Assembly: GCA_030682835.1 (NCBI GenBank)
Contig: JAUXNG010000072.1
Span: 62,001 to 126,000, forward strand
Direction of reading: 5' to 3'
From: Hydrogenophaga sp.
GTDB lineage: Bacteria > Pseudomonadota > Gammaproteobacteria > Burkholderiales > Burkholderiaceae_C
Length of the DNA stretch: 64,000 nucleotides
Below the pieces are notes generated by a model. The model searched no databases. It was not told where the DNA came from and saw only the letters and a program-made list of their open reading frames with translations. A program made the translations under genes and the position numbers. Position 1 is the stretch's first letter; every line of letters begins with the position of its first letter. Below are positions 8,202-63,519 of the stretch, one piece after another.

Positions 8202-16500
<8,299 letters not shown>

Positions 16501-53834: not shown

Positions 53835-54902
53835 TCATGGCAGCGCAAGGCCCTCGGCCACCGCCACACGCTCCAGTGCCGACTCAAACAAGACGCGTGC
53901 GGCACCGGCGACCCGGTGCAGGTACGCGTGCAGCTCGGCGTCGGCCTCGTTGTGGTTGGCGCAGCCGGCGCTGTAGGCCTCGAAACCGGTGATCTGCATC
54001 AGCAGCTCGGCCACATGCCCTGGGCACTCGCAGGCCATTGCGGAGGCCCTGCCCGCGAACGCGGTGAGGCTCGCGTCGTCGAAACGGGGCGGCGTCACGG
54101 GTCCCGCTGTGCCGGGTAGACCCAGCTCCGCCAGCGACCACCCGTGGGCATCCGCCCCAGCCGCGCGACCCTCTGCACCGCCCGACGACCCATCCACGGC
54201 GGTGTGCAAAGCACCCATCCAGCTCTCCAAAGCGGCGTCGTCGGCCGGCTCCCGGGCCATGATCGCACCGGCCTGGGCCAGGCCATCGCGCGCAGCGGCG
54301 CCTGCGAAACGGTAGGCCACGGCCACGCATCGCGGCTGCCAGGTCACGGTCGCCTGGTGCAAATCGTCAGCTGCGCTTTCGTGCACGCCAGCGGTCTGCC
54401 ACAGCAGCAGGTCGACCGGCGCCGGGGCGGCCGATGCAGCGTCTGCCATCGAGTCGAACACCGCCACCACCTGCGGGCGCTGAAACCACTGGCGAAACAG
54501 CGTCGGGCGCTTCAGGCGCACCGCCATCGCCTTGCCCACCACCACCACACGCAGCGGCAGCCTGCGCTCGCCCTGCCCCACGGCCCGCGGCGCCGCCACG
54601 TCACCCCCATGCGCCAGGGCCACATCCCTGAGCTGGTCCATCTCCAGACCCGCCAGTGATCCGATGGCATGCCCCTGTTCGGTCAGCTGGCGAAGCAACA
54701 CCACCCGCTCCACGTCGGCCGAAGAGTACAGCCGATGTCCCGAGGCCGCCGTGACAGGGGCAACCGCCTGGTAACGCTGCTCCCAGATGCGCAGCGTCGA
54801 CACCGGCATGCCCGCCATCCGCGCAACCGACCCGCTGCGAAAGCTGGGTTGATGGGATGAGTCGACAGCAGGCGCAGGAGACGGTTGAACCGGACTTGAC
54901 AT
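53835..54902 (-). CDS. MerR-family regulator, LitR/CarH-like layout with degenerate B12 region
   Basis: A 355-residue regulator. The N-terminal MerR domain (about 21-90) reads RSGSVARMAGMPVSTLRIWEQRY and GHRLYSSADVERVVLLRQL. The middle (about 115-230) has the size and pattern of the Rossmann B12-binding domain of LitR/CarH but lacks the E-x-H or W-x9-EH cobalamin motifs, and the C-terminal part contains CECPGHVAELLMQITGFEAYSAGC, with three cysteines. GGAGG precedes the ATG at 54902. It is divergent from a DCC gene and a HiPIP gene, probably its targets. Light response is possible but cannot be through B12 as in CarH. Confidence 0.8.
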   Translation of the reverse strand: MSSPVQPSPAPAVDSSHQPSFRSGSVARMAGMPVSTLRIWEQRYQAVAPVTAASGHRLYSSADVERVVLLRQLTEQGHAIGSLAGLEMDQLRDVALAHGGDVAAPRAVGQGERRLPLRVVVVGKAMAVRLKRPTLFRQWFQRPQVVAVFDSMADAASAAPAPVDLLLWQTAGVHESAADDLHQATVTWQPRCVAVAYRFAGAAARDGLAQAGAIMAREPADDAALESWMGALHTAVDGSSGGAEGRAAGADAHGWSLAELGLPGTAGPVTPPRFDDASLTAFAGRASAMACECPGHVAELLMQITGFEAYSAGCANHNEADAELHAYLHRVAGAARVLFESALERVAVAEGLALP

Positions 54903-55031
54903 GGTGCGTTCCTCCGCGATGTTTGAGTTGAATTTGAGTCGTATTATCGCAGCTCGACGCGATGATACTCGCTCCAAGAGTTGCGTTTGAGTGGCTTTAA
55001 TCTACCATTCAACCATGTCAAATTCAACTCA
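54903..55031. promoter_or_regulatory. Divergent operator region with 14-bp inverted repeats
   Basis: TGAGTTGAATTTGA (54924-54937) is repeated in perfect inverted orientation as TCAAATTCAACTCA (55018-55031), the second copy covering codons 2-6 of the DCC gene. A partial TTTGAGT lies at 54986-54992. The AT-rich region with TATTAT (54942-54947) contains the promoters. The regulator encoded at 53835 is the obvious candidate to bind the repeats. Confidence 0.55.
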
Positions 55032-55380
55032 CAACCTGCCCACGGTTTACTTTGACGGTGGCTGCCCGGTGTGCTCACGAGAAGTGGCCATGTACCAGGC
55101 GCAACCCGGTGCCGAGTCCCTGCGCTGGATCGATGCGTCACGTTGCGACGCACAAACGCTGGGCGCCGGGCTCACGCGCGACGCTGCCATGGCCCGGCTG
55201 CACCTACGCCGGCCCGACGGCAGCCTGGTCAGCGGTGCAGCGGCCTTCACCGGCATGTGGCAGGCCTTGCCCCGGTGGTCCTGGCTGGGCCGTTTACTGG
55301 GTTCGGGCATCCGCCTGCGGCTGCTTGAAGTGGCTTACCGGTGTTTTCTCTTCGTGCGCCGCGTCTGGCGCAAGGCCTGA
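55015..55380 (+). CDS. DCC-family (DUF393) thiol-disulfide protein
   Basis: A 121-residue protein with the signature YFDGGCPVCSREVAMY (residues about 12-27), a CxxC on a thioredoxin-like fold. DUF393 proteins are common next to LitR-type regulators and photolyases; biochemical roles are poorly known. It is divergent from the MerR-like gene and 81 bp ahead of a HiPIP gene on the same strand. Confidence 0.88.
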   Translation: MSNSTHNLPTVYFDGGCPVCSREVAMYQAQPGAESLRWIDASRCDAQTLGAGLTRDAAMARLHLRRPDGSLVSGAAAFTGMWQALPRWSWLGRLLGSGIRLRLLEVAYRCFLFVRRVWRKA

Positions 55381-55461
55381 AGACCCATTTCCCGCCGCGC
55401 CGAGACCGCAAGCCCTCGACGCCACGATTCTCTCTCTGGCTTGCTTCACAAGGACGACCCC

Positions 55462-55767
55462 ATGCAAAACAATCGACGCACCTTCCTGATGACCCTGGCC
55501 GCCGGCAGCGCAGCCCTTACCACCACCGCCCACGCCCAGCCAGCACGGCTGAACGAGAAAGATCCCCAGGCCGTGGCGCTCGGCTACTTTGAAGACGCCA
55601 CCAAAACCGACACCAAGAAGTTTCCCAAATACGCCGCCGGACAACTCTGCAACAACTGCGCGCTGTACCAGGGGAAGGTCACCGATGCATGGGCCGGCTG
55701 CCCGCTGTTCGCCGGTAAACAGGTGGCCGGCAAAGGCTGGTGCAACGCCTGGGCGAAAAAGGGTTGA
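55462..55767 (+). CDS. Second high-potential iron-sulfur protein (HiPIP), Tat-exported
   Basis: A 101-residue precursor with twin-arginine signal NNRRTFLMTLA and cleavage near AHAQ. Cluster cysteines are C63, C66, C80 and C94. It resembles the HiPIP at 23286, with the shared NEKDPQ and KKFPK stretches. AAGGA precedes the ATG at 55462, so the longer frame from 55441 is rejected. Possibly expressed under control of the MerR-like regulator, in contrast to the photosynthesis-cluster copy. Confidence 0.93.
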   Translation: MQNNRRTFLMTLAAGSAALTTTAHAQPARLNEKDPQAVALGYFEDATKTDTKKFPKYAAGQLCNNCALYQGKVTDAWAGCPLFAGKQVAGKGWCNAWAKKG

Positions 55768-55980: not shown

Positions 55981-56010
55981 AAAAAACCCGCAATCCTTGC
56001 AGATTGCGGG
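55981..56010 (-). terminator. Intrinsic terminator at the left island boundary (ancestral tRNA terminator)
   Basis: Read on the minus strand: CCCGCAATC, loop TGCAAG, GATTGCGGG, then six T. It lies 5 bp outside the left 16-bp core, where the original tRNA-Ser 3' flank would be. Confidence 0.8.
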
Positions 56011-56015
56011 CCTAA

Positions 56016-56031
56016 ACTGGCGGAGCGAGAG
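56016..56031. other. Left attachment core (attL)
   Basis: ACTGGCGGAGCGAGAG, identical to the tRNA-Ser 3' end at 63425-63440. The adjoining bases differ on both sides, which defines the core. Confidence 0.88.
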
Positions 56032-56163
56032 TCCGCCATCATATGACCTCTTGACCCCATAGAGAATCTTCTTGAGAAGATTTTTCTCCTTATACGACAA
56101 ATACTTATCTTCTTTTAGCGTCTCACGACTCATCAGGAGCTTATCATTCCGTCTCACCCCAAG

Positions 56164-56184
56164 TGGTGACTCATATGGTGACTC
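56164..56184. repeat. Left-end direct repeats (possible integrase arm sites)
   Basis: Two copies of GGTGACTC, 12 bp apart, just before the integrase ribosome site. The same 21-bp arrangement with one change is at 63351-63371, near the right core. Confidence 0.7.
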
Positions 56185-56194
56185 GGAGGTCAAG

Positions 56195-57391
56195 ATGGCG
56201 CTGAATGTGAAGCAGGTGGAGAAATTGGTGCGCGATGCCCAACCCGGTCTCACGCCCGACGGCAACGGGCTGTACTTGAAGGTATCGCCCGGGGGCGCCG
56301 CGTCCTGGGCCTACAGATTCCAGATTGATGGCAAGCGGCGGTTGATGGGCCTGGGTGCCTGCTCCCTGGTGACTCTCGCAGAGGCACGCGAGCGGGCCTC
56401 AGAAGCGCGCAAGAAGGCAAGCGAGGGGGTAGACCCGATCGCCGCACGCGAAGCCACCGCCAAGGCCCTGCGGCCGGCCACCTTCCGTGAAGTGGCGGCG
56501 GAGTACATCGCCGACCACCGCGCAAGCTGGCGCAACGCCAAGCACGCTCAGCAGTGGGAGAACACTCTGAAGCAGTACGCGCACCCCAAGCTCGGCGCCA
56601 AGCGGGTGGACCAGATCACCACCGAGGACATCCTGACCGTGCTGCGGCCGATCTGGGAGACGAAGGCCGAGACGGCCCGTCGCCTGCGCAACCGGATTGA
56701 GTTAGTGATCGACGCCGCACGGGCCAAGGGACTATCCACCGCACCCAACCCAGCGGCGTGGCGGGGCCACTTGGACAAGTTGCTGCCCAAGCGACCCGCC
56801 GTCACCAAGCGCCACCACGCCGCGATGGACTACCGCGAGGTGCCCGCCTTCTACAGACGGCTCGCTTCGGATCGCGGTTCGCTTTCCAGTCGGGCTCTGC
56901 GGCTGGCCTTACTGACGGCGTGTCGCTCCTCCGAGGTGCTTCTGGCGCGCTGGGAGGAATTCGATCTGCGCGGCAATGTATGGGTGGTGCCGGCCGAGAG
57001 GATGAAGGCGGGCAAGCCCCACCGGGTGCCACTTGCGCAGGAGGCGCTGAACGTACTGGAAAGCCTCAAGCCCGCAGGCGATACCGGGCCCGCTGGCCAC
57101 CTCTTTCCAGGCGCGAAGAAGGATAAGCCGCTGTCGAACATGGCGATGACGATGGTGCTGCGCAAGATGGGCCACGGCGACCTCACCGTGCATGGGTTCC
57201 GCTCCACCTTTCGGGATTGGGCAGCGGAAGCTACGAGTTACCCCAACATCGTCGCGGAGCAGGCACTGGCGCACTCAGTCGGCAGCAGCGTCGAAAAGGC
57301 GTACCGGCGCGGTGATCTGCTGGAACAGAGGCGCGCCCTGATGGCCGACTGGGCGGCGTACTTGACCGGCGGCGCGTGTCCAGCGGCTTGA
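56195..57391 (+). CDS. int: Tyrosine integrase of P4/DUF4102 type
   Basis: A 398-residue integrase: N-terminal DUF4102 arm-binding domain (about 5-90, with PDGNGLYLKVSPGG), SAM-like core-binding domain (about 95-195), and catalytic domain with R244 (LLTACRSSE), H333 and R336 (HGFRSTF), H360 and nucleophile Y370 (EKAYRR). GGAGG lies 5 bp before the ATG at 56195; an upstream frame from 56072 would run through the arm repeats. It should catalyse recombination at tRNA-Ser. All catalytic residues are intact. Confidence 0.93.
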   Translation: MALNVKQVEKLVRDAQPGLTPDGNGLYLKVSPGGAASWAYRFQIDGKRRLMGLGACSLVTLAEARERASEARKKASEGVDPIAAREATAKALRPATFREVAAEYIADHRASWRNAKHAQQWENTLKQYAHPKLGAKRVDQITTEDILTVLRPIWETKAETARRLRNRIELVIDAARAKGLSTAPNPAAWRGHLDKLLPKRPAVTKRHHAAMDYREVPAFYRRLASDRGSLSSRALRLALLTACRSSEVLLARWEEFDLRGNVWVVPAERMKAGKPHRVPLAQEALNVLESLKPAGDTGPAGHLFPGAKKDKPLSNMAMTMVLRKMGHGDLTVHGFRSTFRDWAAEATSYPNIVAEQALAHSVGSSVEKAYRRGDLLEQRRALMADWAAYLTGGACPAA

Positions 57392-57899
57392 GCGACACCA
57401 AGCGGCGCCTGGGCAAAAAGCACGACATCTATTCGCTCACTAGCTCTCCCGGCGAAAGCGGCGCGCAGCGCCCCTTTTGCCTCTACGAGAGAGCTGCCAG
57501 CAAGCGCCTACGGCATTTGTTCCACCAATTGTCGGGTCACCACAACCTGAACTCTTGATAGAGTGGGGACATTCTTGATACGCGCTGAGTAGCAACAGCG
57601 CGTGGCACACAGGAACCGAATCGCGAACGGCGTACCGCAACGAACGCCCGGGCCTTGGCAGCCGACACGATGCCGGGTGGAGCCCGGCCCCAGTAGGAGG
57701 GAACCCCCTCGACGCCAGTGCGTTGAGGTCCTTTGACGCCCCGTGCGTCGATGGCCTCTGAGGTAGCCCGTCGCGCCGTTAGCCCCGGCAGGAAGGACGG
57801 AAGACCCAGAGTCGCTAGCGAGCCCATCAGTGAGTTTGTGCACCAACCCCCCGCCCGCTTGAGCAGCGCGGGGTCGTACCACCTTGCCGGATCGCATAC
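57392..57899. other. 508-bp gap between int and alpA: hairpin-rich, possible RNA or control region
   Basis: No plus-strand gene fits. The region is GC-rich and full of self-complementary words, such as GCCGGGTGGAGCCCGGC (57671-57687) and TCGCTAGCGA (57814-57823). Two overlapping minus-strand frames stay open for about 140 codons, but lack a ribosome site and have unlikely composition. A structured RNA or promoter/operator zone for the alpA operon is possible. Confidence 0.35.
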
Positions 57900-58127
57900 A
57901 TGACCCAGACAGTTCCCGCCGCAGCGCCTGCGGCACTTCGCATTTACCGCCGACATCACCTTGTCGGCCCCAACGGCATCACCGGCCTTAGCCCGGCCTC
58001 CCTGTATCGGGCCATCGCGGCGGGCTCGTTCCCGCGCCCGGTACCGCTCAGCGCCCGGGCCGTCGGCTGGCCCTCGGATGTAGTCGAGCAGTGGATCACC
58101 ACCCGGTCCGCGGGAGGTATCGCGTGA
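57900..58127 (+). CDS. AlpA-family DNA-binding protein
   Basis: A 75-residue protein with GLSPASLYRAIAAGSFPRPVPL and AVGWPSDVVEQWI, the AlpA/excisionase winged-helix signature. In P4-like elements AlpA activates integrase or acts as excisionase. The next gene's GTG overlaps its stop (GTGA). It heads a five-gene coupled operon. Confidence 0.85.
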   Translation: MTQTVPAAAPAALRIYRRHHLVGPNGITGLSPASLYRAIAAGSFPRPVPLSARAVGWPSDVVEQWITTRSAGGIA

Positions 58128-58468
58128 ACGTCTACAACCATCGCGCAGCCGCCCAGCGCGCCACCCATGCCACCCCCGCCCACGCCGCGGCCCTGCGGCG
58201 CCTTGAAGCCCACCGCGCCCAGCACCGGGCCGGCCCCCGTCGCCTCTCTGCAGCCCTGCGCGACTGGGGGGCGACTGGCACCCCGCCCCCGGCCTGGCGC
58301 GCCGTAGACGCCAGTGCTCGCACGCAGGGGGTCGCGGTGTGTTTCCTCGCCGATTTCGACGCTGTCTCGCTGTCCGCGGGCCCTGCTTTGCACGCGTACG
58401 CCGGCACGCCGTCGCAGGCGCTCACCAGCATCGGCGCCCTGGTCGCACTCCGGGAGGGCTCCAAGTGA
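58124..58468 (+). CDS. Hypothetical island protein, 114 residues
   Basis: Starts at GTG 58124 (GTGA overlap with alpA) and ends overlapping the next gene. The N-terminal half is rich in Ala, Arg and His (LRRLEAHRAQHRAGPRRLSAALRDW), likely nucleic-acid interacting; the C-terminal half has hydrophobic FLADFDAVSLSAGPAL. No family recognised. The long open frame and coupled starts support it. Confidence 0.6.
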   Translation: MNVYNHRAAAQRATHATPAHAAALRRLEAHRAQHRAGPRRLSAALRDWGATGTPPPAWRAVDASARTQGVAVCFLADFDAVSLSAGPALHAYAGTPSQALTSIGALVALREGSK

Positions 58469-58674
58469 CCGAATCGCAGATCGCTATGCATTTTCTGAAC
58501 GAAAGCCTCCCGCAGAAGTGGATCGACACGGCCAAGGCCCGCGCCGCGCTGGCCGGGTCTGAGTTGCGGGTCACGCCCGTCGGGTACCAGATCGTCGCGC
58601 GCAGCAAGACCGCTGTCCTACAGACCTGGCGCCATGTAGAGGCGCTGATCGAGTTCTTGGAGGACAACGCATGA
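58465..58674 (+). CDS. Hypothetical island protein, 69 residues
   Basis: GTG start at 58465 overlaps the preceding stop (GTGA); its own stop overlaps the next ATG. Sequence includes TESQIAMHFLNESLPQKWID and RHVEALIEFLED, mostly helical. No family recognised. Confidence 0.6.
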   Translation: MTESQIAMHFLNESLPQKWIDTAKARAALAGSELRVTPVGYQIVARSKTAVLQTWRHVEALIEFLEDNA

Positions 58675-58925
58675 ACGCCTCCATGGTTGGAAGCCCGCCC
58701 GTTGTCCTGATGCGCACCAAGCCGGTGAAGGTCGGCCGCGACATTTCCGTCGAGTTCGAACAGTGGAAGACCGGTATCGAAGGGGTGTTCCGAGTCCAAG
58801 TGATCTGGGATCCTCTGCCATCGCCCCGCGAGATGCGCCGCTGCTTGAGCCGCCCCTCATACGCTCGGGCACTTGCTGAATTCACGGCGAAAGCCAAGGA
58901 GGCATGCGATGCAGGCCGCGGGTAG
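58671..58925 (+). CDS. Hypothetical island protein, 84 residues
   Basis: ATG 58671 overlaps the preceding stop (ATGA). The product contains DISVEFEQWKTGIEGVFRVQVIWDPLPS and ends within the start of the primase gene (17-bp overlap). No family recognised. Coupling on both sides makes it likely to be translated. Confidence 0.6.
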   Translation: MNASMVGSPPVVLMRTKPVKVGRDISVEFEQWKTGIEGVFRVQVIWDPLPSPREMRRCLSRPSYARALAEFTAKAKEACDAGRG

Positions 58926-60951
58926 CGAGGTGCACGCAATGCATCGCTTCAGCGAGGCAAACGCCGCCGTCGTGCCCCGTGGGCTCAAGGGTCAAAAGCG
59001 CTTCGGCCCGTGGCGTGCGGAGTGGGACGCCAAGCGCCGCAAACACGAGAAGGTTCCCCGCATGGTGGAAGACGTGCGCCGGGGACTCTCCACCGCGCGG
59101 CCAGAGCGCTGGGGCACCTTTGATGCCGCGGTCGCCGCTCACTTTGCGTCAGATGGGGCCACGCAAGGCGTGGGCTACTGCATGACCGGGCCGCACGGGA
59201 TCGTCGGTATCGACCTTGACAGGGCCGTCGTCGATGGTGTCGTTAAGCCGTGGGCGCGAGAGATCGTTGATCGTGTCGCCAGCTACACCGAGACCAGTCC
59301 ATCGGGCAACGGCCTGCGCATCTTCGTTCGCGGCGAGATCAAGCGGGACTTCATTGACCACCCGTCTGGCGTCGAGGTGTACGCTGGACACACGCCCCGG
59401 TACTTGACCGTAACGGGCAAGCACCTACCCGGAACTCCTACTGACGTGGTCGACGCGCCGCCTGGCGCCCTGGAGTGGCTGGCGGAGACCTACTGCCGCC
59501 GCCACAACGAGCCTGGTTCGGCCGATGTGCAGGCGACGCCCGACCTCCTGCCGCCCGAGCAGTGCCCCGACGTCAGCACGCTGAATCTGCCGCCGAGCGC
59601 GTCGGAGTTCCTTCTAGACGGCACGCACAGCGGGGACCGCTCGCGCGCGCTGCACTCGGCTGCGGTAGCCCTCTTCAGCGCCGGCATGAACGACGTTCAG
59701 GTGTTATCCGTCCTCGCGAGCAACCGCCATGCAATGGAGGTTGCGCTTGATCACTGGGGGCCTGACGAGGACAAGGCACACCTGTACCTGTGGCGCCACC
59801 AGGTGTGCAAGGCCAAGCCGAAGGCCATGAGCTCGATCCTCACGGCCGCTGACTGGGACGATGCCGAGCAGGGGCCTGCCGGCGTGCGCGAGACCGATGT
59901 GCCGCGCTTCAAGTTCCTGCAGGCGGGCGAGTATGCAGCCTCGATCAAGCTGCCTGAGTGGCTCGTCCCTGGCCTGCTCCCGCGGGCGGAACTCGTTTCT
60001 GTGTTCGGCGAGTCCGGCTCTGGCAAGTCATTCTGGCTGCTCGACCTGCTGCTTCGGCTGGGCGCCGGCCTTGCGTGGCAGGGCAAGCCCCTGCAGCGCG
60101 CGCGGCTCGCGTATGTGGCCGCGGAGGGCGCCTCGGGGGTGGCTCTTCGCCTGCAGGCCATGGCGAAGCACTTCGGCGTGGAGCTCTCCGAGGTGGATCT
60201 GTGGGTCATGGCCGGGCAGCCGAACCTGCTCCAGCAGGATGACGTGCGCGAGTTGGTAAAGGCCATCAGGGCGCTCGGCGATGTTGACGCCATCGTCCTC
60301 GACACGCTGGCCCAGGTCACCCCTGGCGCTAACGAGAATTCATCGGAGGACATGGGCCGCGCCCTGGCGCACAGCAAGACACTCGGACAACTCACCGGGG
60401 CGACCGTCATCCACGTGGCCCATGCTGGCAAGAACACCAACCTGGGCCAGCGGGGCTGGTCGGGGCTCAAGGGCGCGGCAGATGCTCAGATCGAGATCAC
60501 CCGCACCGCGACCTACCGCGCTGCCACCGTCGCGAAGCTTAAAGACGGAGCCGGTGAGGGGGTCGACTACCGCTTCAAGCTGATTGAGGTCCCGCTCGAC
60601 TTTGAACCCGATACCGACGGCGTGGTGCCTACCAGCTGCGTCGTGGAGTACCTCGACGGTCTCGCGACTCCTGGCGCACCCGGGCAGACGAAGCAGGCAT
60701 CCACCGGCTTGGGCGCTCACCAGACGCGCATGCTGGACGTTCTTGCGCAGTTGATCGAACAGAGCCCGGCCGGTGTGGACCGCGAAGCACTGCTCCGAGC
60801 CACCGCCGAGCGCCTCAACGAGGTGCCGGCGGCGAAGCGCAGGGATCGCGCCCGTGAGGCGTTCGCCGGCCTTGTCCGGCGTGGCGCGATCGCAGAGCAC
60901 CTGGGCGTGGTGGCCCTCACCACCCCGGCGGAGGGCCTCGGCATGACGTAG
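58909..60951 (+). CDS. Primase-helicase (AEP-like N-terminus, RepA/AAA_25 ATPase)
   Basis: A 680-residue replication protein. The N-terminal region (about 60-200) has GIDLD (100-104) and SPSGNGLRI (130-138), the catalytic layout of PrimPol-type primases. The C-terminal ATPase has Walker A GESGSGKS (367-374), Walker B AIVLDT (461-466), and HVAHAGKN, of the RepA/AAA_25 family. AAGGAGG lies six bases before ATG 58909, which replaces an upstream in-frame start. It should start replication of the excised element, probably at repeats directly downstream. Confidence 0.85.
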   Translation: MQAAGSEVHAMHRFSEANAAVVPRGLKGQKRFGPWRAEWDAKRRKHEKVPRMVEDVRRGLSTARPERWGTFDAAVAAHFASDGATQGVGYCMTGPHGIVGIDLDRAVVDGVVKPWAREIVDRVASYTETSPSGNGLRIFVRGEIKRDFIDHPSGVEVYAGHTPRYLTVTGKHLPGTPTDVVDAPPGALEWLAETYCRRHNEPGSADVQATPDLLPPEQCPDVSTLNLPPSASEFLLDGTHSGDRSRALHSAAVALFSAGMNDVQVLSVLASNRHAMEVALDHWGPDEDKAHLYLWRHQVCKAKPKAMSSILTAADWDDAEQGPAGVRETDVPRFKFLQAGEYAASIKLPEWLVPGLLPRAELVSVFGESGSGKSFWLLDLLLRLGAGLAWQGKPLQRARLAYVAAEGASGVALRLQAMAKHFGVELSEVDLWVMAGQPNLLQQDDVRELVKAIRALGDVDAIVLDTLAQVTPGANENSSEDMGRALAHSKTLGQLTGATVIHVAHAGKNTNLGQRGWSGLKGAADAQIEITRTATYRAATVAKLKDGAGEGVDYRFKLIEVPLDFEPDTDGVVPTSCVVEYLDGLATPGAPGQTKQASTGLGAHQTRMLDVLAQLIEQSPAGVDREALLRATAERLNEVPAAKRRDRAREAFAGLVRRGAIAEHLGVVALTTPAEGLGMT

Positions 60952-61072
60952 GAGCGGCTACCACCCGAAACACCCAGAACGGGTGCCATTCCGTGCCCCC
61001 GAAACACCCGGACCCGGTCCATCTATTTATAGATGGCCGGGGGAACCGGGTGCCGAACGACTGAAAGAACCT
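60952..61072. repeat. Repeats and AT-rich hairpin after the primase gene (possible origin)
   Basis: CCGAAACACCC occurs twice (60963-60973 and 60999-61009), each followed by an inverted GGGT or GGTCC segment, and CCATCTATTTATAGATGG (61019-61036) is a perfect 8-bp stem with a two-base loop in an otherwise GC-rich setting. The arrangement of iteron-like repeats beside an AT-rich hairpin suggests an origin of replication. Confidence 0.45.
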
Positions 61073-61864
61073 ATGAAAACCAAGACAATCAAGACCACCG
61101 CCCTTGAGCAGAAGCGCACCGCGCTTGCCAATCGCCTCACCGAACTGCGGTCCACCTTCGCCGCCCTGGAAGCCCGGGTGGAAAGCGGGCGCTGCAATGG
61201 GGGATCCAACCAGGGGGGTGCCCCGAACGCAGACCCGGGAGCCGTCGCCGCCTTGCCCGGTGCAAAAAGCGAACTGCAGAAAGCCGAGACCGATCTCGCC
61301 CTGATCGAGAGGGAACTCGCCAAGCTGAAGGCGGCGGCAGAAGCGCCGACCGTGAAGGCCAGGTGCGATGTGCGCCTTGACGAACTGAAGGCTGAGATCC
61401 GTCGGCACGAGACGAAGCGAGACGCCCACGCCAGCCACGCCACCGCGCTGGGGGCGGAGCAGGCACTCGCCACTGCGGCAGCGGAGGCAGCGAAAGACGC
61501 CGCGGCAGACGCCCTGTCCACCCCCGGTGCGCAGGCCACTCCCGTGACCTGGCGCGAGCACTACGACCGCGCTGACCTCCACGCGCGCGCAGCCGAGAGG
61601 GCCCGCGCCAGCGCGGCGCAGGAGCAGGCGCGCATCGACGCCCTGCGGGCACAGCTGGCCGAGGTGCAGGCAGAGGCGGACGTCGCCGAGGTCGAGTCCG
61701 CGTCGGCTGCACTCGCCGGCCCGCGCGACGCCTTCATGGCCGCAGCGCACCGGCAGCTGGTCGCCGAGCGCAGGCTGTACGGGCGCGAGGGCATGACTCG
61801 TTTCGACTTCCAGTCGATGTACCGCAGCTGGCTGGACGAGCAGGCTGGCGACGCCCCGCAATAG
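61073..61864 (+). CDS. Coiled-coil island protein, 263 residues
   Basis: The product is dominated by Ala, Glu, Arg and Lys in heptad-like pattern (about 5-50, 75-120, 190-230: ELQKAETDLALIERELAKLK, QARIDALRAQLAEVQAEAD). No family recognised; it may be structural or regulatory, for example interfering with a helper phage. ATG 61073 has GAAAG upstream; the in-frame extension through the repeats is rejected. Confidence 0.7.
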   Translation: MKTKTIKTTALEQKRTALANRLTELRSTFAALEARVESGRCNGGSNQGGAPNADPGAVAALPGAKSELQKAETDLALIERELAKLKAAAEAPTVKARCDVRLDELKAEIRRHETKRDAHASHATALGAEQALATAAAEAAKDAAADALSTPGAQATPVTWREHYDRADLHARAAERARASAAQEQARIDALRAQLAEVQAEADVAEVESASAALAGPRDAFMAAAHRQLVAERRLYGREGMTRFDFQSMYRSWLDEQAGDAPQ

Positions 61865-62131
61865 GCGAGGCTCCTGGCGTATATGTTCCAACGCAGGGGG
61901 ACGGAGAGGCGCGGTGGTCAAGAGTTTTTCGGTTTTTGAAACTTAATTTAGCGCGCACCCACCCCATGCTTGGTTCATACACATCAACCAAATTGTGAAA
62001 AGACCATGCGAGCTGCTCAGTTACTCAAGGTTGTAGATCGACCTCTCCTCAGAGGACAACCTCCAGAGTGTTTGCGTGTAAGCCCACGTCACTGCTGAAT
62101 GCGCCCCTCCATCAACAAAGGGACAGAGAAC
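61865..62131. other. AT-richer spacer in the island
   Basis: A 267-bp stretch with TTTTTGAAACTTAATTTAG near 61928-61949, plausible as a promoter region for the genes that follow. A 30-codon frame at 62006-62098 is too short to support. Nothing else is recognised. Confidence 0.4.
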
Positions 62132-62344
62132 ATGCAAACACTTGACGCTGTCGCCGACGGCATCGAACAGGCTGCTGGCCTGGTGCAGTTGCTGATTGCA
62201 GCCGCTGCCGAGACCACTGACGGCACCATCCGGCCGGCGCTGTACTGCCTGGCAGACGTTCTGGCGCGAGCCGGTGCCGTGCTGGACACATTCAGCCCAT
62301 CGGAGAGCGGGCGGGTAGACGCCCGCGAACATCCCCGGAACTAA
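62132..62344 (+). CDS. Small island protein, 70 residues
   Basis: Starts at ATG 62132; an in-frame ATG at 62099 gives 81 residues. The product LDAVADGIEQAAGLVQLLIAAAAE followed by TIRPALYCLADVLARAGAVLD is helical, of the sort found in small DUF3077-like proteins. Function unknown. Confidence 0.55.
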   Translation: MQTLDAVADGIEQAAGLVQLLIAAAAETTDGTIRPALYCLADVLARAGAVLDTFSPSESGRVDAREHPRN

Positions 62345-62366
62345 CCGCACCAAAGGCAATTCACTC

Positions 62367-62495
62367 ATGCACACCCCCCACTTCATCGGCGCCTACAACG
62401 CCGCAATCGAGGCCATGCACCTGGTCCAGTCCATCGGCGATGGCGCTGATGTTCGCGTATGGGCCTTGCCGGCCGGCAACGGCGGAGTCAATTAG
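62367..62495 (+). CDS. Small open frame, 42 residues, ending in TAG
   Basis: Begins ATG 62367, reads FIGAYNAAIEAMHLVQSIGDG and stops at TAG 62493-62495, after which the frame stays open another 50 codons to TGA 62646. It could be an intact small gene or a gene broken by a nonsense mutation. Confidence 0.35.
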   Translation: MHTPHFIGAYNAAIEAMHLVQSIGDGADVRVWALPAGNGGVN

Positions 62496-62805
62496 CAGCG
62501 TCGTTTCAGGCGCATTCCACTGGCATGGTTGTTCTTGCTCGCGCAAGAGGCGAAGTTCCCTGCAGCAGCAGACACCGAGCGTGGCACGCGCAGCCTGATG
62601 TTTCTGGCTGCGCCACCGACCAAGCAGTTGCTGATGTTGATGCTGTGAAATTTCTGCGCCGATCTGTTTCCGTCTCACCTGGCCGCTCTTGGCGCGCCAG
62701 ATCCGGCCATCTCGCAGACGAAACAGGTGGAGCGGCCTGACCTGAGGTATCGCTGCTCATCAGCAAAGGCGCGAGTAACATGCGGACACAACTACCGAGG
62801 TCCAC
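62496..62805. other. Unassigned island spacer
   Basis: Frames in both directions stay open over parts of this stretch but have atypical composition and no ribosome sites. I see no RNA, terminator or gene I can support beyond the possible extension of the frame at 62367. Confidence 0.4.
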
Positions 62806-63327
62806 ATGCGCTCTATTGCCATCGCCGCCCTGCTCCTGATCGCAGTACACCCGGGCGCATGGGCGGTCTACAAATGCACCAGCCCTGACGGGCGGGTGGC
62901 GTTCCAAGAGACGCCATGCGCCCAGGGCGGCGAGAAGCTCAAAATACAGCCGCTAGGCGGCACGGACAATAAATCAAAATTGCCGACTCTCGAAGACCTC
63001 AAGAAGGTTCTCGAGCAAAAGACAACCATCCCCACCTCGGCGATCCCCCAGCGAAGTGAAGAAGAGCTCCGACAGCAGGTGATCGCCAGTCTCAAAGACC
63101 CGCAATCTGCGCAATTTCGCGCGGTGCGCCATGTTGGAGAGGGCAAGGCCATCTGCGGTGAGGTCAACGCGCGGAACTCGTACGGCGGATTTGCAGGGTT
63201 CAGGGCCTTCGTCGCTGACGCCCAAGGCGTCTACTGGCACCAGGACGGCAGCGGCCCCAGTTCCATCGGCTTCGACGGCGCGCGCAACATGTACTACCCG
63301 CGGGCGCATGCGTGGGGGTGTCTGTAA
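62806..63327 (+). CDS. Exported island cargo protein, DUF4124-like
   Basis: A 173-residue protein with a signal peptide (residues 1-20, AWAVYKCTS) followed by a DUF4124-like block, YKCTSPDGRVAFQETPC, and a C-terminal region with LKDPQSAQFRAVRHV and CGEVNARNSYGGFAGFRAFV, a combination seen in uncharacterised exported proteins. Six cysteines are present outside the signal. It could affect the cell envelope of the host. Confidence 0.75.
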   Translation: MRSIAIAALLLIAVHPGAWAVYKCTSPDGRVAFQETPCAQGGEKLKIQPLGGTDNKSKLPTLEDLKKVLEQKTTIPTSAIPQRSEEELRQQVIASLKDPQSAQFRAVRHVGEGKAICGEVNARNSYGGFAGFRAFVADAQGVYWHQDGSGPSSIGFDGARNMYYPRAHAWGCL

Positions 63328-63350
63328 TTCCTGAGCATCTCTAAGCCGTG

Positions 63351-63371
63351 TGGTGACTCAAATGGTGACTC
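63351..63371. repeat. Right-end direct repeats (possible integrase arm sites)
   Basis: Two GGTGACTC copies in the same spacing as at 56164-56184, with 20 of 21 bases identical. They lie 54 bp from the right core. Confidence 0.7.
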
Positions 63372-63387
63372 AGACTCGGCAAATAGC

Positions 63388-63420
63388 AAAAAACCCCAAG
63401 TAGATCAACTACTTGGGGTT
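63388..63420 (-). terminator. Intrinsic terminator of tRNA-Ser supplied by the island
   Basis: On the minus strand: AACCCCAAGTAG, loop TTGAT, CTACTTGGGGTT, then T-run. It is 5 bp past the tRNA 3' CCA and replaces the ancestral terminator now at 55981. Confidence 0.88.
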
Positions 63421-63424
63421 CTGT

Positions 63425-63440
63425 ACTGGCGGAGCGAGAG
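63425..63440. other. Right attachment core (attR) in tRNA-Ser 3' end
   Basis: ACTGGCGGAGCGAGAG, identical to 56016-56031. It covers the last 14 bases of the tRNA plus two beyond. Confidence 0.88.
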
Positions 63441-63519
63441 GGATTCGAACCCTCGATGAGGCTCTACACCCCATACTCCCTTAGCAGGGGAGCACCTTCG
63501 GCCACTCGGTCATCGCTCC
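63427..63519 (-). tRNA. tRNA-Ser (anticodon GCU)
   Basis: Acceptor GGAGCGA pairs with TCGCTCC, the CCA end is encoded, T-loop GGTTCGAATC, anticodon loop CTGCTAA, and a long variable arm as in class II tRNA. The last 14 bases belong to the att core. Confidence 0.95.

Follow-up and report, generated by a model that had tools for sequence, protein, structure and literature searches.

The window, a stretch of 64,000 nucleotides, contains a discrete 7,425-bp element at 56016-63440, which is inserted in a tRNA-Ser(GCT) gene and bounded by a 16-bp att repeat. Nine genes were called in the element, all in one direction: int, alpA, three small genes, a primase-helicase gene and then cargo. The features of the island and its target site, in window positions, are as follows.

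55984-56013, minus strand: native tRNA-Ser terminator (13-pair stem and T tail), cut off from its gene by the inserted island
56016-56031, no strand: att copy on the far (integrase) side, identical over 16 bp to the tRNA 3' end
56163-56187, no strand: integrase-side copy of the doubled arm-type repeat, some 132 bp away from the att core
56195-57391, plus strand: int, P4-type tyrosine integrase of 398 aa (Arm-DNA-bind_3, Phage_int_M and Phage_integrase over Pfam cut-off)
57900-58127, plus strand: alpA, excisionase/regulator of 75 aa (Phage_AlpA, PF05930, 1.8e-11, over cut-off)
58124-58468, plus strand: orfA, orphan of 114 aa, GTG start, 4-nt overlap with the alpA stop
58465-58674, plus strand: orfB, orphan of 69 aa, GTG start, 4-nt overlap with orfA
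58671-58925, plus strand: orfC, 84 aa, ATG start, 4-nt overlap with orfB
58909-60951, plus strand: primase-helicase of 680 aa, NrS-1-type primase domain and RepA-type hexameric helicase domain
60952-61072, plus strand: candidate origin, a gap of about 121 nt directly 3' of the primase-helicase gene
61073-61864, plus strand: alanine-rich orphan protein of 263 aa, coiled-coil-like by eye
62099-62344, plus strand: orfD, orphan of 81 aa, no family at E 0.1
62806-63327, plus strand: DUF4124 protein of 173 aa, cargo (DUF4124, 1.3e-5; phrog_2320, 2.3e-17)
63350-63374, no strand: tRNA-side copy of the doubled arm-type repeat, some 51 bp away from the att core
63390-63422, minus strand: island-borne terminator (14-pair stem and T tail), now serving the tRNA
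63425-63440, no strand: att copy (16-bp repeat) inside the tRNA gene
63427-63519, minus strand: tRNA-Ser(GCT), kept intact

The att core, ACTGGCGGAGCGAGAG, was found only at 56016-56031 and 63425-63440 in a scan of the 64-kb window that allowed up to 2 mismatches, and two matches to it occurred in 0 of 100 shuffles. The copy at 63425-63440 is the 3' end of tRNA-Ser(GCT). The junction without the element was recognized in two (G456 and G457) of the 33 congeneric genomes in which the site was examined, and in both of these a terminator similar to that at 55984-56013 lies directly 3' of the tRNA. The start and end that the sequence-only reading had given for an island in tRNA-Ser coincide with the att repeats. 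A search of 66 further genomes of the genus found nothing close to the whole element (76 bits for the best match other than self), and the idea that the island is common in the genus was rejected. Matches at the DNA level in phages and plasmids lie only within the integrase stretch. Inside each end of the element lies a 25-bp repeat (at 56163 and 63350; 92% identical), the doubled core of which has 2 matches with up to 3 mismatches allowed, at these two sites only (chance, 0.01). The doubt raised at the outset, that the flanking repeats are due to chance, was rejected on the basis of the att-core shuffles and of the doubled arm core unique to the two ends.

In the integrase, the Phage_integrase domain (PF00589) was matched in Pfam at 1.7e-13, and the motifs TACRSSE, HGFR, ALAH and KAYRRG are present. 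The integrase, the AlpA-like control protein and the helicase recognized from the letters alone all exceed the Pfam cut-offs. The proposed five-gene operon from alpA to the primase gene with overlapping starts (GTG, GTG and ATG) proved exact: alpA/orfA, orfA/orfB and orfB/orfC overlap by 4 nt each and orfC/primase by 17 nt, with the reading frames intact. At third codon positions, G+C is 0.74-0.83 in alpA and the small genes, similar to the 0.72-0.82 of the other genes. As for the three operon proteins that could not be placed before, orfA and orfB are still orphans. No relatives of orfA were found in IMG/VR or in a separate set of 16,175 ORFs (best E 0.024 in the latter) and no family was matched, and the predicted fold of orfB is of low confidence (pLDDT 63.9). 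orfC, by contrast, has a clear relative (phmmer, 1.7e-5) directly upstream of a replicase gene at a locus consisting of int, orfC and replicase (L061), where an att repeat was looked for and not found. Sub-threshold matches also lie just upstream of replicase genes at L056 (E 0.064) and L051 (E 0.18). To judge from the aligned sequences (alignment A6), orfC is a small family sited upstream of such replicases. Its predicted fold consists of three strands and two helices (pLDDT 86.6), and a Foldseek search yielded no structural match at E 0.001.

Among the cargo, the 263-aa protein has no relatives at E 1e-5 in 398 other genomes of the family and none in IMG/VR; a weak match to an Rz-like spanin (E 0.025) was taken as a coiled-coil chance match. 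The DUF4124 protein is probably exported, judging by eye from its hydrophobic start. Apart from the spanin match, the nine called proteins matched no virion, relaxase or conjugation family, which agrees with the lack of virion and conjugation genes noted before, and no TerS gene was seen in the element. P4-like satellites are characterized by the P4 alpha replicase and by psu, delta and sid genes, and no such family was found among the nine proteins. PADLOC gave only one weak ATPase match (3.8e-4) on the window proteins, Rfam at E up to 1 gave one snoRNA match below its cut-off that was taken as chance, and a scan for sigma-70 promoters found 0.

The primase part of the 680-aa replicase matches primase chains at about 6e-24 over profile positions 9-185, and the helicase part is of the RSF1010-RepA type (RepA 1g8y, 2.2e-8 over 343-507), with an AAA_25 match of 3e-35 over the Pfam cut-off. 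The motifs DLD, SPS and GESGSGKS are present. The NrS-1 phage primase-polymerase (PMC8718748) shares with the island protein the primase domain (by sequence profile), the SPS motif and a C-terminal helicase part; NrS-1 is a phage replicase, whereas its island counterpart serves a 7.4-kb island.

The possible origin suggested earlier can be refined to 60952-61072, where direct repeats (60964-60984 and 60998-61018) are followed by a hairpin with arms at 61019-61025 and 61030-61036 and a TTTA loop. The repeat statistics are weak in the window. For the gap itself (about 122 nt), p is 0.01 for direct and 0.06 for inverted repeats; for a 200-nt window at the site the values are 0.025 and 0.125, respectively, and a 250-nt repeat count reaches only the top 14%. 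Direct plus inverted repeats were recognized 3' of the replicase gene in 56 of 75 phage and island loci versus 0 of 72 upstream control windows, and the window island is one of four misses among 14 islands in this test. The candidate origin is therefore weaker in the window than in its relatives. A hairpin score of at least 9 was reached at 53 of 75 loci and likewise by 137 of 444 random windows, and a score of at least 11 at 36 of 75 loci versus 26 of 444 random windows; on its own, the hairpin score is weak evidence, and hairpin pairing within a locus is biased because the axis is chosen by pairing.

As to relatives of the plan elsewhere, 43 relative loci were tested, and 13 of them proved to be tRNA islands of 6.5-11.1 kb that are bounded by att repeats and carry int and a related helicase. 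The plan occurs, at similar size, at tRNA genes for nine amino acids, and subterminal arm repeats exceeded all 200 mononucleotide shuffles in 11 of the 14 islands (the window and 13 relatives). In viral contigs of 12-40 kb, related integrases are also encoded next to other tRNA-Ser genes, with anticodons GGA and TGA. One relative (L050) contains a small terminase gene, and another (L191) contains a large terminase gene and a capsid gene. Because this capsid gene was missing from the ORF list and was found by eye, the absence of virion genes from the other islands is not firm. A tblastn search with 14 virion queries detected, beyond the source genes in L191 and L050, one capsid-like stretch, in L039; the query behind it, a protein of L204, was called a capsid by eye and not by family search.

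Published descriptions of known systems, of which excerpts are compared here, show the same arrangement in part. In the phage-inducible chromosomal minimalist islands (PICMI; PMC10803314), as in Gram-negative PICI (PMC10111431), the order is int, alpA and primase. Like the window island, PICMI belong to a 6-kb class with direct repeats and no capsid or packaging genes, and have a small gene between alpA and the primase gene and variable cargo between the primase gene and the target gene. However, the DUF3987/DUF5906 primase that defines PICMI is absent here, with AAA_25 and an NrS-1-type primase domain joined to a RepA-type helicase in its place; the hallmark integration site of PICMI is fis, whereas the island lies in tRNA-Ser; and complete PICMI are reported in that account from Vibrio only, whereas the present host is a betaproteobacterium. 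Since it departs from PICMI in the family of its primase, in its target gene and in its host, we do not file the island as a PICMI. Gram-negative PICI and HE-PICI (PMC6092414, PMC10111431) likewise carry unidirectional int, alpA and pri, and the HE-PICI attP has a doubled arm motif on both sides, although its sequence differs. The PICI origin lies immediately 3' of the replication gene, the position of the candidate here, but it has two sets of iterons around an AT-rich center, whereas the center here is the TTTA-loop hairpin. PICI are 10-20 kb, whereas this island is 7.4 kb with no TerS or capsid gene seen, and the PICI replicase families (D5, DUF927, Prim-Pol and DUF5906) gave no Pfam match in the island replicase at E up to 1. 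A further criterion described for Gram-negative PICI is an att site never used by prophages. In pRN1 and phage prim-pol/helicase replicons (PMC4234260), a required stem-loop lies directly downstream of the gene, like the hairpin here; pRN1, however, is an archaeal plasmid that exists free, encodes an SF3 helicase and has a single large stem-loop instead of repeats around a small hairpin. The class iii cryptic integrated elements (PMC5862659) have an att-flanked primase gene and no phage or conjugation genes, and an AEP primase and att repeats, with no virion or conjugation genes found, also characterize the island. That survey concerns the PrimPol-PV1 supergroup, whereas NrS-1-like primases are placed there in the PrimPol proper family.

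With int, alpA and the primase gene in one direction, a replication module of its own and no virion genes seen in nine proteins, the island retains the phage-satellite plan first proposed for it. We consider it probable that it is an intact minimal integrative element working like a PICMI- or PICI-type satellite and packaged by a helper phage. For this reading the sequence itself provides the boundaries, the empty site, the intact frames and motifs, the operon layout and the att and origin layouts recurring in relatives, and we infer that excision, replication, induction and phage packaging of the island occur. Because the island has its own integration and replication genes and no recognized means of travel, it most likely travels in the particles of a helper phage, of which it would be a parasite. 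In such a cycle, Int would recombine the tRNA-Ser 3' end with attP via the paired doubled arm sites, and AlpA would tip this reaction toward excision. The alpA-orfA-orfB-orfC-primase operon would be switched on as one, and the primase-helicase would open and prime the repeat-plus-hairpin origin directly behind its own gene, yielding circular or concatemeric copies for the helper phage to package. One candidate helper is a lambda-like prophage that resides in this genome and so makes the helper question testable; on the other side, the only DNA common to island and prophage is chance-like (best 20 nt, E 0.06).

Alternatively, the island may be what is left of a temperate phage after loss of its late genes, with int, alpA and the replication module retained between att sites that are still intact; we regard this as unlikely. 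Its closest replicases are those of prophages (43-47% identity over the alignment) and of viral contigs, 25 of 39 of which are 36-48 kb long; of the three full-length primases that come closest, two have identical counterparts on IMG/VR contigs (45-112 kb and 48 kb); and the primase tree groups the window with phages weakly (91/44, long branch). The integrase is 43-45% identical to those of Acidovorax phages, and the virion genes of L191 and the capsid-like stretch of L039 point the same way. However, the gene set is compact, open and unidirectional, with tight overlaps and intact motifs, and the recurrence of plan and size at tRNA genes for nine amino acids is not expected from independent random decay. 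A cryptic integrative plasmid, self-replicating once excised and spread passively by transformation or generalized transduction, would account for the primase-helicase and candidate origin and for the likeness to the cryptic integrated elements that Kazlauskas et al. (2018) described; it seems improbable, as an operon headed by alpA and a gene order like that of PICMI suggest that induction is regulated and triggered by a helper, and one relative has a small terminase. An island that encodes no relaxase itself can be mobilized in trans, and non-coding stretches of 508 nt and 461 nt could harbor an unrecognized oriT used by a conjugative element, but such a mobilizable element seems improbable as well, since no relaxase or conjugation family was found in the nine proteins or in 116 ORFs of the 13 related islands (of 160 listed; those left out of the Pfam scan were mainly overlapping or antisense), matches in plasmid DNA are confined to the integrase stretch, and two relatives have phage packaging genes.

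The island may be part of a broad and so far unnamed group of minimal phage satellites, mainly of Burkholderiales, a view that we put forward tentatively and as a whole. The group would be united by a swappable replicon that it shares with temperate phages (a RepA-type helicase with a primase part of NrS-1 or PriCT/Toprim type and, directly behind the gene, an origin of the form iteron-hairpin-iteron) and by doubled integrase arm sites at fixed distances. Iteron and arm sequences particular to each element would prevent cross-fire among co-resident elements and helper phages, and all would depend on full-size particles of the helper. The published PICMI search (PMC10803314) was run over all complete genomes and required int, alpA and a DUF3987/DUF5906 primase. 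That a PICMI-like minimal layout is found in a betaproteobacterium with a different replicase suggests that selection preserves the plan rather than the family of protein, and also that search tools built on the known primase families would overlook elements of this kind. Two sequence signatures, the paired arm sites and the repeats that follow the replicase gene, lend themselves to direct searches.

In sequence, the island is intact and replicative in design, and it carries no recognised transfer genes. It spans 7,425 bp (56016-63440) and is bounded by a 16-bp repeat (att), the two copies of which lie at its ends and nowhere else in the window, the right-hand copy being the 3' end of the tRNA-Ser(GCT) gene. 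Inside each end, the half-site TGGTGACTC occurs twice at a spacing of 12 bp and so forms a 25-bp repeat; the doubled form is found solely at these two subterminal places in the window, and a single TGGTGACTC half-site also falls, by chance, within int. In base composition, the element is not distinguishable from its surroundings. The source genome (the window is G000:C57:62001-126000) amounts to 3.6 Mb in 104 contigs and is 87% complete.

All nine called genes lie on the plus strand. Int exceeds the cut-off for three Pfam integrase models and AlpA that for its own model. Successive small genes share 4 nt, and Shine-Dalgarno-like stretches precede orfA, orfB, orfC and the primase gene; none is evident before alpA. 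In the 680-aa replicase, profile positions 9-185 align with solved primase chains and positions 343-507 with RepA; the structures matched (6a9w, 6k9a and 7rr3), labelled only Primase in the match table, are presumably those of the NrS-1 phage primase. Its DLD, SPS and Walker A motifs are invariant in a four-sequence alignment, except for the variable middle of Walker A; the SPS motif has been described as a nucleotide-binding loop (PMC8718748). Proteins of 263 and 81 aa are encoded on the cargo side, together with a DUF4124 protein.

Within the genus, 67 genomes were searched for the tRNA side and 65 for the left flank. Two of the 33 other genomes with the site examined (G457 and G456) align unbroken across the joined flanks, for about 50 nt to the left and at least 100 nt to the right. 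In both, the tRNA is directly followed by a terminator resembling that at 55984-56013 of the window, so the island has split the tRNA gene from its native terminator; a second terminator (63390-63422) was brought by the island. For the remaining 31 sites, the match begins at or close to the tRNA end, so the region downstream of this tRNA is variable in the genus. The island is absent from all 66 other genus genomes searched (best non-self match, 76 bits). Genes at 54500-55767 of the window match a contig of another genome (G454, C39) about 53 kb away from the same tRNA, so either this left flank was rearranged or there is a difference in another insertion. In G456 (C15:18324-21034), about 2.7 kb of extra DNA lies between tRNA-Ser and the stretch that follows the tRNA in the window.

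A replicase match at E 0.001 was found in 75 of the 399 family genomes (its own included), and only three relatives besides the window's are near full length, with 44-47% identity. Two of these three are identical to IMG/VR proteins (L031 to L076 and L101; L032 to L071), and 25 of the 39 IMG/VR replicase loci are on contigs of 36-48 kb; most full-length relatives therefore reside in phages. Twenty replicase loci came from the genome collection, and a search of the taxonomic order at E 1e-20 retrieved 27 of 399 genomes, again with its own. Six of the 73 loci searched encode an AlpA-like protein upstream of, and co-oriented with, the replicase. Immediately upstream of the replicase gene, L061 carries a clear relative of orfC, and L056 and L051 have sub-threshold ones.

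Direct and inverted 7-mers in the 200 nt 3' of the replicase stop were compared with dinucleotide shuffles (p 0.05 each). Both exceeded the shuffles at 56 of 75 distinct loci, namely 10 of 14 att-bounded islands, 24 of 31 distinct viral contigs (L063-L101) and 22 of 30 other genome loci; in the 200 nt that precede these genes, the count was 0 of 72. In an earlier run the figures were 54 of 75 loci and 2 of 440 random windows. The window's island is among the misses: its gap of about 122 nt alone gives p 0.01 for direct and 0.06 for inverted repeats, and its repeat count is only in the top 14% of a separate ranking; the single-strand fold behind its replicase beats 199 of 200 shuffles. In many loci, a TTTA or TATA loop sits between a C-rich and a G-rich arm, with element-specific repeats on both sides. 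Origins directly behind the replicase are described for PICI (PMC6092414, PMC10111431) and pRN1 (PMC4234260); SaPI has one there too, and SCCmec a putative one. The position of this candidate origin is therefore not new, and what the present counts add is the recurrence of such repeats in phages and islands alike.

A repeat of the tRNA 3' end enclosing integrase and replicase was sought in the window and at 43 genome loci that have a relative. Fourteen att-bounded tRNA islands were found (the window, L034, L036, L037, L039, L050, L052, L055, L180, L182, L185, L186, L187 and L191); their repeats measure 15-91 nt and they span 6.5-11.1 kb, L036 and L182 running to the contig end; opposite-strand control repeats reached 12-13 nt at most. 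L041, with a 17-nt repeat 15.9 kb away, was left out, and the remaining 29 loci had no enclosing repeat or no tRNA in the stretch examined. In 10 of the 14 islands the integrase gene is at the tRNA-distal end and reads inward, as in the phage-inducible chromosomal minimalist islands (PICMI). As group-level cargo, two dnstrm_HI1420 antitoxin-like proteins occur in L034/L036/L037, and FRG-domain, Zeta-toxin and SRAP proteins together with PADLOC PDC-S15 matches in L050/L052/L055.

A repeat common to the 200 nt inside each att site was better than all 200 shuffles in 11 of the 14 islands (p = 0.015 for L185, 0.335 for L180 and 0.295 for L191). In eight of the 11, including the window's, the repeat has an 11-12 bp internal period. 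The distance to the att site is 111-147 bp for one copy and 10-83 bp for the other. This layout is similar to that of the HE-PICI attP, although the motif sequence is different; there, arm motifs flank the attP centre at 81 bp on the upstream and 132 bp on the downstream side, an arrangement that its authors did not find in other PICI (PMC6092414, PMC10111431).

We could not find any terminase, head/capsid, relaxase or conjugation gene in the window's element, nor any relaxase or conjugation family in a Pfam scan of 116 ORFs from 13 related islands. That scan revealed a small terminase in the group containing L050 and a large one in the group containing L191, and a further search assigned each to the island named. 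In L050 the small terminase (15402-15821, minus strand) is at the tRNA end; this island, att-bounded and 9.3 kb long, occupies tRNA-Arg in an alphaproteobacterial MAG, and no large terminase was seen in it. L191, a 9.6-kb island in tRNA-Val, has a major head protein besides its large terminase (9293-12756), with no portal seen between them, and is either a capsid-forming satellite or a prophage remnant. L039 contains a capsid-like stretch. The window's Int is 50-53% identical to the integrases of 11 of 15 IMG/VR loci (of the other four, three show 42-45% and one a partial match at 60%), and a tRNA-Ser gene adjoins int in four of the 15 (L194, L196, L200 and L201). Four short IMG/VR contigs (L193, L199, L204 and L206) combine an Int relative with apparent capsid and protease genes, three of them also with a portal or terminase gene; this layout is like that of capsid-forming PICI but could also be that of cut prophages. 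TerL of the phrog_2 and phrog_9 types is missing from the window's own genome. It has a GpA-type terminase on contig C103, beside portal, ClpP-type protease, decoration, major head, tail and endolysin genes:

G000:C103:1-40000 (L207 and L208), about 10.7-35.8 kb: lambda-like prophage, same genome as the island

Because these virion and lysis genes adjoin the terminase, this prophage is a candidate helper of the island; the two have no telling DNA in common.

Among the matches listed, in a literature search that left most subscription papers outside, no title or abstract beginning names such islands in Burkholderiales. The combination of an intact sequence, a replicative design and the lack of recognised transfer genes matches PICMI and PICI, as do gene order, origin position and arm layout, and we rather favour the view that the element would work like them. 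Since it differs from PICMI in primase family, integration site and host, and from PICI in replicase family, we file it as neither. The paper that describes PICMI mentions 135 PICMI-like elements across all complete genomes, with Vibrionaceae accounting for 67 (PMC10803314).
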